In this document: one piece after another, positions 2,798-11,711 of the stretch | Layout of the letters: each line of letters starts with the position of its first letter | Numbering within the stretch: position 1 is the stretch's first letter | From: Bacillota bacterium | GTDB taxonomy: Bacteria; Bacillota; Clostridia; Tissierellales; Sedimentibacteraceae | Assembly (NCBI GenBank): GCA_029239575.1 | Contig: JARBUP010000002.1 | Location: 1 to 35,149 of the forward strand | Reading direction: 5' to 3' | DNA length: 35,149 nt | Notes under the pieces: generated by a model | What the model saw: only the letters and a program-made list of their open reading frames with translations | The model's database searches: none | Told to the model about the DNA's origin: nothing | Translations under genes and position numbers: made by a program

Positions 2798-3769
2798 ATG
2801 ACTATAGATAACAATATTACTAAACAAATAATAACATTTGATCAAGCAATTGTATTAGTGAAAGATGAGGTAGATAGAGCTCTATCTTCCTCACCTCTCA
2901 TAATAAGAGGATTTACTAAGCATTTGACTAAATCCCATGGAAAATTTATTCGTGCAGTATCACTAATTGCTTGTGCACAAGATGAGGTTGGTTATATTCA
3001 TCCTAATGCAATTAAATTTGCAGCATCAATAGAACTTTTACATCTTGCGACACTAGTTCATGATGATATTATAGATGATGCTGATTTAAGAAGAGGGGAA
3101 GCAACTCTTCAAAAAAAATTCGGTAAAAAAACAGCAGTAATTTGTGGCGATTATCTTTTGGCTGTAGCACTACAATTAGCTACTTCAGTTTCAAATAGAG
3201 AAGATTATTTGAAAATTAATATGACTGAGTATATAACAAAAGTATGTCTTGGTGAATTAAACCAACATATAAATAATCATAATTTGGATTTATCGGTAAG
3301 CAAATATTTAAAAATAATTTCAGGTAAAACGGCAGCCTTGTTTGAAGCTTCGTTTTTCGCTGGTGCTATATTGTGTGAAAATGATAAAATAATAATTAAC
3401 AAATACAAAAAACTTGGAAGATATATTGGTATGTTATTTCAGCTTACTGATGATTGTATGGACTTTGAGGAGACTAAAGACACGGCTAAAAAACCTGTTC
3501 AATCAGATTATGAACAAGGTGTAATAACATTGCCGTTAATATATGCATTAAAAGAAGACAGTAATTTAAAAGAAAAAGCTAAATTTAATTCTGTTACAAG
3601 AGATGATATAAATTCTTCTGTATTAAAAACAGGTGGATTAAAATTTACTCATTTAATGTCAAAGCAATATTACAACAAAAGTTTAAAATTAATTAATGAG
3701 TTAAATGTTTCAAAAGAAAAAGAAGAAAAGCTTAAATTGATTTTAGATAAATCTTATAGGTTAATATAA
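2798..3769 (+). CDS. Polyprenyl (heptaprenyl/octaprenyl-type) diphosphate synthase
   Basis: Class-I trans-prenyltransferase motifs HDDIIDDADLRRG and QLTDDCMDFEE; RBS aaagga before ATG 2798. Confidence 0.88.
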   Translation: MTIDNNITKQIITFDQAIVLVKDEVDRALSSSPLIIRGFTKHLTKSHGKFIRAVSLIACAQDEVGYIHPNAIKFAASIELLHLATLVHDDIIDDADLRRGEATLQKKFGKKTAVICGDYLLAVALQLATSVSNREDYLKINMTEYITKVCLGELNQHINNHNLDLSVSKYLKIISGKTAALFEASFFAGAILCENDKIIINKYKKLGRYIGMLFQLTDDCMDFEETKDTAKKPVQSDYEQGVITLPLIYALKEDSNLKEKAKFNSVTRDDINSSVLKTGGLKFTHLMSKQYYNKSLKLINELNVSKEKEEKLKLILDKSYRLI

Positions 3770-3865: not shown

Positions 3866-4930
3866 ATGAAAAAGTTAGCATCATTAGCGTTGGTTTTATC
3901 TATGTCTTTATTCGCTTTCGTAGGATGTAGCAAACCAGCAGCAGAAACACCAGCACCAGCGCCAGCACCAGAAGCGCCAGTAGCTGAAGCACCAGCAGCA
4001 GATGCTGTTAAAACAGGATTAGCAGTAATTTCAAATGCAGAAAAATCAAAAGCACCAGAAGCTGATAAAGAAGGTACAGCTGAAGTTAACTCTGTAGTTG
4101 TAGCAGTAACTGTTGATAAAGATGGTAAAATAGTAAAAGCAGCTATAGATACTGCACAAACAAAAATTAACTTTACTAAAGAAGGTAAAATAACTACTGA
4201 TTTAGCAAAAGTATTTGAAGCAAAACAAACACTTGGTGATGAATATGGAATGAAAAAAGCTTCTAAAATAGGTAAAGAATGGTTTGAACAAGCAAATGCA
4301 TTCGAAACATTTGTAGAAGGTAAAACTGTTGAAGAAATAAAAGCATTTGCACTTGACGCAGATACTCATTTAACTGATGCTGATATGGTATCTTCTGTAT
4401 CTATTAAAGTTGGCGGATACATAGAAGCTATTGAAAAAGCTGTAGCTAATGCTCAAGATTTAGGAGCAACTGCTGATGATAAATTAGGTCTTGGCGTTAT
4501 AACTACTATCGACAAATCTAAAGATGCTGCAGCTGATGCAGAAGGAGTAGCTCAAGCTTATACTTATTACACAGTTTCAACATTTGATGCTGATGGAAAA
4601 GTTTCAAGCTCAATAATGGATGCTTCTCAAACAAATGTTAAATTTGATGCAACAGGTAAAATTACTTCTGATTTAGCAGCTGAATTACAAACTAAAAATG
4701 AATTAGGCGATGCTTACGGAATGAAAAAAGCATCTAAAATAGGTAAAGAGTGGAATGAACAAGCTAATGCTTTCTCTTTATATGTAGTTGGAAAAACAGT
4801 TGCTGAAGTTGAAGGTATCGCAGTTGACGCTGAAGGACACACTACTGCAGCTGATATAGTATCATCAGTAACAGTTGGTATAGCTGAATTCCAAGAAACT
4901 TTAGCAAAAGCTGAAGCTTCTGCAAAATAA
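3866..4930 (+). CDS. Lipoprotein with two tandem FMN-binding-like repeats (PplA-like)
   Basis: Start at ATG 3866 (RBS gtggagga) rather than 3803; lipobox LFAFVGC; Pro/Ala-rich linker; two homologous ~140-aa repeats sharing YGMKKASKIGKEW(F/N)EQANAF and D(M/I)VSSV(S/T). Confidence 0.75.
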   Translation: MKKLASLALVLSMSLFAFVGCSKPAAETPAPAPAPEAPVAEAPAADAVKTGLAVISNAEKSKAPEADKEGTAEVNSVVVAVTVDKDGKIVKAAIDTAQTKINFTKEGKITTDLAKVFEAKQTLGDEYGMKKASKIGKEWFEQANAFETFVEGKTVEEIKAFALDADTHLTDADMVSSVSIKVGGYIEAIEKAVANAQDLGATADDKLGLGVITTIDKSKDAAADAEGVAQAYTYYTVSTFDADGKVSSSIMDASQTNVKFDATGKITSDLAAELQTKNELGDAYGMKKASKIGKEWNEQANAFSLYVVGKTVAEVEGIAVDAEGHTTAADIVSSVTVGIAEFQETLAKAEASAK

Positions 4931-5001: not shown

Positions 5002-5013
5002 GAGGTGATTATA

Positions 5014-6111
5014 TTGTTTAAGTTAAATAAATTTAAAAAAGTAATTTCAATTGTTACAATAATTATGCTAATGGTAAGCTTAACAGCTTGCACAAGCGCC
5101 GAAAATAACAATACAGATGATAAAAACAATACAAAAAATAAAACACGATATGAATCGGAATTTCTTGAATTGTTTGACACTGTAACCCGTATAGTTGGCT
5201 TTGCAGAAAGTGAAGCAGAATTTAAAGAATATTCACAAATAATTTATGATAATTTAAAAGAATATCATGAGCTTTATGACATATATAATGATTATGAAGG
5301 CATAAATAATATAAAAACAATTAATGATAATGCAGGTATTCAACCTATAAAAGTAGACCAAAAAATAATAGATTTACTTAAATTTTGTAAAGAAGCATAT
5401 AATATTACAAATGGGAAAACAAATATTGCATTTGGCTCTGTTTTAAAAATATGGCATGATTACCGAGACGAAGGCATTAGTGACCCAGAAAATGCAAAAT
5501 TGCCTGATATTAAAGATTTGGAAAAAGCAAGTAAACATACGGATATAAATAATATTATAATAGATGAAACAAACTCTACAGTATTTCTTAAAGACCCTGA
5601 TATGAGACTTGATGTAGGTGCTGTTGCAAAAGGATATGCAACAGAACAAATAAGCAAAATAGCAAAAGAAAGTGGTTTAACATCTGGTTTGATTAGCGTT
5701 GGCGGGAATGTTAGAGCTATAAGTCAAAATTCAGAAACAAAAGCACCATGGAATGTTGGAATCCAAAATCCTGATACTCAAAGTGAGAATCAAGTTTTAA
5801 AAGTAGTAAGAATTAATGATATGTCACTTGTAACAAGTGGTGATTATGAAAGATATTACACTGTAAATGGTAAACAATATAATCATATTATAGATACTGA
5901 AACTCTTTTTCCAGCAGAATATTTTACTTCAGTTTCTATAATAATACAGGATTCTGGACTGGCAGATGCTTTATCTACTGCACTTTTTGATATGCCTTTT
6001 GAAGAAGGTTTAGAATTAATTAACAGTATTCCTGATGCTGAAGCTATGTGGATTTTAAAAGATGGAACATTTAAATATAGCGAAGGTTTTGAAAAATTAA
6101 TAAAAAATTAA
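5014..6111 (+). CDS. apbE: ApbE-family FAD:protein FMN transferase, lipoprotein
   Basis: Likely TTG start at 5014 after gaggtg RBS; lipobox MVSLTAC; ApbE features ELFDTVTRIVGF, LDVGAVAKGYATE, SVGGNVRA, YNHIIDTETLFPA. Confidence 0.88.
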   Translation: MFKLNKFKKVISIVTIIMLMVSLTACTSAENNNTDDKNNTKNKTRYESEFLELFDTVTRIVGFAESEAEFKEYSQIIYDNLKEYHELYDIYNDYEGINNIKTINDNAGIQPIKVDQKIIDLLKFCKEAYNITNGKTNIAFGSVLKIWHDYRDEGISDPENAKLPDIKDLEKASKHTDINNIIIDETNSTVFLKDPDMRLDVGAVAKGYATEQISKIAKESGLTSGLISVGGNVRAISQNSETKAPWNVGIQNPDTQSENQVLKVVRINDMSLVTSGDYERYYTVNGKQYNHIIDTETLFPAEYFTSVSIIIQDSGLADALSTALFDMPFEEGLELINSIPDAEAMWILKDGTFKYSEGFEKLIKN

Positions 6112-6124
6112 AGAGTGACTCGAG

Positions 6125-6191
6125 GATTTAGGGACGCACCTTTTTGATTTTAGGGACTGTCCCCAAGATCAAAAACGTGCGTCCCTAAATC
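6125..6191. repeat. REP/MITE-like imperfect palindrome with central GGGACTGTCCC
   Basis: Outer arms gatttagggacgcac (6125-6139) / gtgcgtccctaaatc (6177-6191), second arms tttttgat (6141-6148) / atcaaaaa (6168-6175), central gggactgtccc (6153-6163). Confidence 0.85.
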
Positions 6192-9880: not shown

Positions 9881-10279
9881 ATGAAGAAGAAAAAAGTTTT
9901 TTTATCATTTATATTTATTGTAGTTGTTTTATTTATAATTATTTTGTTTTCAATAAACAATATGCAAAAAAGTTTAAGCAAGTTAGATAAGTTAACAATA
10001 GAAAATATTAATTTATCAAATGCAAAAGATGGAACATATAATGGTAGCTATGGAGTATTTCCTGTATCTGCTGAAGTTAATGTAACTATAAAAAACAATA
10101 AAATAGTGAATATTGAATTGTTGAAACATAATAATGGTAAAGGTGAATCAGCAGAAATATTAACTGAGAAAGTCGTGGAAAATCAAAGTTTAGAAGTCGA
10201 TATTGTTTCAGGAGCTACTTATAGCAGTAAAGTAATATTAAAATCAATTGAAAATGCTTTAAATAAATCAATCAATTAA
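9881..10279 (+). CDS. Membrane-anchored small FMN_bind-domain protein
   Basis: N-terminal single TM/signal anchor; DGTYNGSYGVFPVSAEVNVTIKNNKIVNIE...DIVSGATYSSKVILKSIENAL with the D-x-x-S-G-A-T flavinylation motif. Confidence 0.85.
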   Translation: MKKKKVFLSFIFIVVVLFIIILFSINNMQKSLSKLDKLTIENINLSNAKDGTYNGSYGVFPVSAEVNVTIKNNKIVNIELLKHNNGKGESAEILTEKVVENQSLEVDIVSGATYSSKVILKSIENALNKSIN

Positions 10280-11210: not shown

Positions 11211-11711
11211 ATGAGTGATAAAAAATTAAATAAAATGGTTTATACTGCATTGCTTGCAGCACTAATATGCGTAGCTACATTTCTTATTAAAGTTCCAATG
11301 CCAATTACAAATGGATATTCACATATAGGTGATGGATTTATATTTATAGCAGTAATTTTACTTGGAGGCAAAAGTGGAGCATTAGCTGCAGCTTTAGGTG
11401 CGGCTTTAGCTGACATACTGGGTGGATATGCAATTTATGCTTTACCAACATTTATTATTAAAGGTGTCATGGCGTTAATAATGGGATATGTTGTAGTAAA
11501 AATGGATAATAAAAATAAGTATTTAATAGGTTCATTTTTAGGAAGTGTATGGCAGGTAATAGCTTATTATTTAGTGGGTGCTGTAATGGTTGGAAGTTTC
11601 ATAACTCCATTAGTTGAAATTATAGGAAACTCACTTCAATCATTAGTTGGAATTATAATAATGGTAGTTTTTTTAGCTGTATTTAAAAATACACCATTAT
11701 CAAGAAAATAA
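11211..11711 (+). CDS. ECF-type transporter S component (membrane protein), substrate not determined
   Basis: Multi-TM; MVYTALLAALICVATFLIKVPMP...GYSHIGDGFIFIAVILLGGKSGALAAALGAALADILGGYA is typical of ECF S components. RBS aaggagat. Confidence 0.75.
   Translation: MSDKKLNKMVYTALLAALICVATFLIKVPMPITNGYSHIGDGFIFIAVILLGGKSGALAAALGAALADILGGYAIYALPTFIIKGVMALIMGYVVVKMDNKNKYLIGSFLGSVWQVIAYYLVGAVMVGSFITPLVEIIGNSLQSLVGIIIMVVFLAVFKNTPLSRK

Follow-up and report, generated by a model that had tools for sequence, protein, structure and literature searches.

A two-repeat clostridial lipoprotein, probably a PplA counterpart, bears serine at one predicted flavinylation site and threonine at the other

Results

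Gene content of the locus

The DNA analysed here, hereafter the window, is a stretch of 35,149 nucleotides from a genome of the Sedimentibacteraceae; the genes given with coordinates below lie on its forward strand. An open reading frame at positions 3866-4930, preceded by an RBS-like ggagg, translates into a lipoprotein of 354 amino acids with a lipobox and two homologous repeats. The signal peptide and its lipobox AFVGC, with the lipidated Cys21, occupy positions 3866-3928. An Ala/Pro/Glu-rich linker (3929-4003), modelled with low pLDDT, connects the lipid anchor to the first of two predicted flavin domains. This is repeat 1 (residues 48-199, positions 4007-4462; model pLDDT 97); repeat 2 spans residues 205-354 (4478-4927), as delimited by the repeat alignment and the model.

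The lipoprotein is encoded together with apbE, ndh2 and a prenyl synthase gene, a combination that characterises FLEET loci. Upstream lie a type II NADH dehydrogenase resembling Ndh2, with a membrane C-terminal region (754-2781; Pyr_redox_2, E 1e-36), a gene conserved at this position, and a HepT-like polyprenyl diphosphate synthase (2798-3769; PF00348, E 1e-57) that probably serves the quinone side chain. Directly downstream, positions 5005-6111 encode ApbE, an FAD:protein FMN transferase that is itself a lipoprotein (PF02424, E 1.1e-68) and the probable modifying enzyme of its neighbour. Further on, a membrane-anchored canonical FMN_bind protein with the motif DIVSGAT (9881-10279; PF04205, E 2.7e-10) is a likely second substrate of ApbE, and the S component of an ECF-type riboflavin transporter (11211-11711; PF07155, E 1.8e-33) possibly supplies the flavin. 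Two ABC transporters and a flavodoxin are also encoded in the window. The intergenic region between apbE and an ABC transporter gene holds an inverted, palindrome-like stretch at 6120-6190 (agggacgcacctttttgat ... atcaaaaacgtgcgtccct).

This neighbourhood is recurrent: in 81 loci with a homologue of the lipoprotein gene, apbE is found nearby in 72, hepT in 38 and ndh2 in 36. The window's genome also encodes another ApbE (L126, G000:C285), which belongs to the T-G type described below and adjoins a divergently oriented second ndh2-like gene.

Two acceptor motifs in register

Aligned end to end, the two repeats place DMVSSVS (residues 173-179, positions 4382-4402) and DIVSSVT (residues 330-336, positions 4853-4873) in register. 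The putative acceptors are Ser179 (codon tct, 4400-4402) in repeat 1 and Thr336 (codon aca, 4871-4873) in repeat 2. Translation and repeat alignment thus bear out the asymmetry described in an earlier note on this DNA. The same note had matched both motifs to the FMN_bind site D-x-x-S-G-A-T, which holds for their position and fails for part of their content. Tested against the ApbE motif D-x-x-[ST]-G-A-[ST], both repeats have the Asp at -6 and a Ser/Thr acceptor; the Gly-Ala that should precede the acceptor is absent from both, with Ser-Val in its place.

This deviation belongs to the whole family. Public genomes and the window's genus, which is represented by 24 relatives of the window's genome, yielded 109 distinct homologues; the closest named matches include Sedimentibacter saalensis. 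Across these proteins the motif reads [DE]-L-x-[SA]-S-V-T instead of SGAT: in repeat 1, position 5 is Ser in 91 and position 6 is Val in 84 of the 109 homologues. The larger departure from known sites is this family-wide SSVT-type motif, and serine at the acceptor is a minor variation with precedent.

Each of the two deviations occurs alone in Rnf-like subunits of the same genome (L122, G000:C203), whose non-canonical sites read DAISGVT in the RnfG-like and DAVSSAT in the RnfD-like protein. In two further proteins of this genome, L321 (G000:C223) and L322 (G000:C81), a LysM-like wall-binding segment is fused to a single divergent repeat with DVTTSAT or DITTSAT at its end; they are possibly wall-anchored flavin carriers. 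In another clostridial genome, a two-domain lipoprotein (L300) has apparent serine acceptors (DTITGVS, and QVS in repeat 1) and adjoins an ApbE of the T-G type.

Serine and threonine at the acceptor columns

The repeat 1 acceptor is Thr in 101 and Ser in 5 of the 109 homologues, and that of repeat 2 is Thr in 98 and Ser in 5, the remainder being gaps or unread; at neither column did any of the 109 show another residue. In an alignment of 100 two-repeat homologues, most sequences have Ser or Thr at 27 columns, but the columns of residues 179 and 336 are the only ones where all of them do, which argues against a chance match to the acceptor motif. Some homologues (L084, L086, L088) have a single repeat. 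Another (L109/L116, G008:C62) is broken up into reading frames of 258 and 245 amino acids, likely through an assembly gap, since unread bases fall in its repeat 1.

Serine is confined to repeat 1 in the window protein and in G001 of the same genus (DLAASVS / DLMASVT); three Butyrivibrio proteins have it in both repeats, and two distant lineages in repeat 2 only. With the motif columns excluded from tree building, parsimony requires three Thr/Ser changes per repeat. The window protein groups on that tree with G001 and with L009, which has Thr in both repeats, so that serine would have been gained twice in this group, or gained once and reverted once. The serine codons are TCT in the window and TCA in G001, each one base from a threonine codon (ACT and ACA, respectively). 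With the same residue written by another codon in G001, a sequencing or assembly error behind Ser179 can be dismissed.

Repeat 1 has not degenerated either. Of 34 strongly conserved columns, 31 are intact in it and three are changed (E122T, L174M, T179S). Nor is the divergence of this repeat peculiar to Ser-bearing proteins: the identity difference, repeat 1 minus repeat 2, is -5.1 points in the Thr-bearing sister L009 against -5.3 points here. Because the acceptor columns hold Thr or Ser and never another residue, we read the serine as a rare, recurrent, conservative substitution that keeps the hydroxyl under constraint and leaves the site unbroken.

Relation to FMN_bind domains

Standard profiles do not see this family. 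None of 60 members matched PF04205 (FMN_bind) above cut-off, scans of the lipoprotein against Pfam, NCBIfam and PADLOC gave chance-level matches only, and a single-sequence search of the PDB with it gave no match. A profile of the repeats, in contrast, retrieved 2kzx from the PDB (E 1.7e-6), the family's acceptor Thr aligning with the Thr of SGAT. The only other match, 8p2b, was weak (E 0.4), and placed the acceptor on Thr67, the residue that bears FMN in the 8p2b crystal structure (PMC10339131). Profile-profile comparison with FMN_bind aligned the motifs with E values of 2.9e-5 to 2.9e-4, at a probability of only 40-48%; reversed or shuffled controls gave 0.2-0.7.

AlphaFold models of the two-domain protein and of a single repeat reached a mean pLDDT of 92 and 97. 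Their order of elements (three strands, helices, motif, helix) agrees with that described in the literature for domains of the 8p2b type. Foldseek searches with both models returned no FMN_bind structure among the 50 matches listed.

Fusions provide a further link. Same-genus paralogues (L110-L115 and L192:7537-8898), adjoining apbE, join a PF04205 domain with the motif DVIAGAT to two SSVT repeats, and in one of them (L113, 788 amino acids) the canonical FMN_bind domain is fused to four. Finally, L202 combines an EWHEQA segment like that of 2kzx with the motif DAVAGVT, and so bridges the 2kzx and SSVT families.

An ApbE subtype near SSVT repeats

ApbEs encoded beside SSVT repeats (93 of 96 in the first set) read H-x-[IL]-[DN]-x-x-T-[L/M]-x-P, with T-[L/M] following the conserved H-x-x-D motif; T-G takes that place in most other ApbEs. 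A strong SSVT neighbour was found for 11 of 26 T-L ApbEs and for none of 76 T-G ApbEs (Fisher p 4e-8, a statistic that ignores kinship); the T-G count leaves out four enzymes that have a T-L ApbE alongside or only a weak match. Strict dedication of an ApbE to SSVT sites was rejected on the near-closed genomes G023 and G024, each of which shows a single ApbE beside 15-16 FMN_bind matches. As that of G023 is of the T-L type, T-L enzymes probably serve both kinds of site.

Discussion

We now propose that the lipoprotein is probably a clostridial, FLEET-type counterpart of PplA with two flavin domains, likened to it by architecture and locus and through the bridging relatives L202 and L300. The earlier note had already called it PplA-like, with ApbE as its partner and the motif at the acceptor position; conservation of the locus, profile matches to two structures, one of them FMN-bearing, and the fusion to FMN_bind all speak for that view.

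The explanation that we hold to be likely is that each repeat bears an FMN, the first on Ser179 and perhaps at lower occupancy, and that the protein relays electrons outward as PplA is proposed to do. The neighbouring ApbE would attach FMN to the two repeats: to Thr336 in repeat 2, and to Ser179 in repeat 1, where the hydroxyl nucleophile is kept and occupancy would at most be lowered. From the locus we infer a flow of electrons in which Ndh2 would pass them from NADH to quinone, the quinol would reduce the FMN groups on both repeats, and these flavins would hand them to extracellular electron acceptors. In Listeria PplA, two sites are flavinylated by FmnB (PMC9973259). Flavinylation of serine is documented for DUF3570 and for ApbE-linked Flavodoxin_4 and FMN_red (PMC8238504, PMC11334425), which take up the flavin on a serine, as predicted for repeat 1, but have unrelated folds. 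Against the two-flavin reading stands the departure of the motif from the canonical one at its Gly as well as its Ala position, given what single exchanges there did in a Klebsiella substrate (see below).

The earlier note had left two fates open for repeat 1: unflavinylated, or flavinylated on serine. If S-S-V-S were a weak substrate of ApbE, repeat 1 would be un- or marginally flavinylated in vivo and the mature protein would carry one FMN. Indeed, ApbE prefers threonine: a Thr-to-Ser change at the acceptor lowers flavinylation by 10-55%, and in a Klebsiella substrate a single G-to-A or A-to-V change was enough to halve it (reviewed in PMC12052999). The single-repeat homologues, moreover, indicate that one flavin domain can suffice. 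Yet the acceptor hydroxyl is never lost among the homologues, repeat 1 retains nearly all of its conserved columns, and it is no more accelerated than in L009; besides, the Butyrivibrio proteins, with Ser at both sites, would be flavin-free although apbE is retained alongside. We consider a single FMN unlikely, and flavinylation on serine, possibly at lower occupancy, is the predicted fate of repeat 1.

Serine might instead have been selected in the window's lineage as a functional asymmetry, setting the two flavins to differing occupancy or redox behaviour. The same asymmetry in G001, with serine likewise in repeat 1, fits this. L009 does not: it branches nearest to the window protein and has Thr in both repeats. 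The three other Ser lineages follow no consistent pattern, serine being found in both repeats of Butyrivibrio and restricted to repeat 2 in the other two. Since the phosphoester linkage is remote from the isoalloxazine (PMC8238504, PMC10339131), no shift in potential is expected from exchanging Thr for Ser. Differential tuning of the two flavins is unsupported, and we regard such selection as very unlikely. A wider proposal sees here one of a widespread group of clostridial two-flavin lipoproteins, whose non-canonical site [DE]-L-x-[SA]-S-V-T would be read by the T-[L/M] subtype of ApbE; in the window's lineage, divergence of the two sites to Ser and Thr would then load the flavins unequally. 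Taken as a whole, it seems distinctly unlikely.

It is highly improbable that the repeats form a lipoprotein domain without flavin, for instance of an IscU-like fold, that adjoins apbE by chance. The missing PF04205 match would fit such a reading, as would the best Foldseek matches listed, which are IscU scaffold proteins; these superpose poorly (TM 0.33-0.50 and rmsd about 6.6-8.8 A for the single repeat), and iron-sulphur scaffolding is hardly to be expected of a lipid-anchored protein outside the cytosol; we do not take the matches to indicate that function. Against any domain devoid of flavin stand the limitation of Ser/Thr invariance to the acceptor columns, the alignments to 2kzx and 8p2b, the FMN_bind fusion and the linkage to apbE.

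The natural Ser/Thr pair within one chain lets the protein serve as its own test of how far ApbE depends on threonine and of whether it still modifies a divergent motif. The more useful outcome is the family itself: SSVT proteins recur in clostridial electron-transfer loci, are invisible to Pfam, and would be missed by surveys that rely on the FMN_bind model or on the SGAT motif.

Comparison with known systems

Like the window protein, PplA of Listeria monocytogenes is a lipoprotein with two homologous flavin domains (predicted ones in the window), encoded near apbE/fmnB, ndh2 and prenyl synthase genes. The Listeria EET locus comprises ndh2, demethylmenaquinone genes, eetA, eetB, pplA and fmnB, and the gene order of one homologous locus (L028), ndh2-hepT-UbiA-NusG_II-Hpre_diP_synt_I-pplA-apbE, resembles it. 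Sister loci of the window also share UbiA, NusG_II and EetB-like genes with the Listeria FLEET locus, whereas the window has no UbiA, NusG_II or Hpre_diP_synt_I between ndh2 and apbE. The acceptor motifs differ as well: SSVS and SSVT here, SGAT and TGAT as reported for the Listeria and Enterococcus homologues (PMC7074142).

With FMN_bind domains of PF04205 (such as CbFMN4-D1 in 8p2b, NqrC and RnfG), the repeats have in common the order of three strands, helix, motif and helix, and an aligned Ser/Thr acceptor before the C-terminal helix. They differ from them by an inserted YGM-x(n)-KEW-x-EQA segment, by S and V in place of G and A in the motif, and in matching FMN_bind neither in Pfam nor among the Foldseek matches listed. 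The 2kzx family, solved with its function unassigned and including L202 as a relative, has a Y-x-M / EWxEQA segment in common with the repeats, and its acceptor, too, is matched in them, reading D-x-x-[SA]-G-[AV]-T in this family; unlike the window protein, its members consist of a single domain with a canonical or near-canonical motif.
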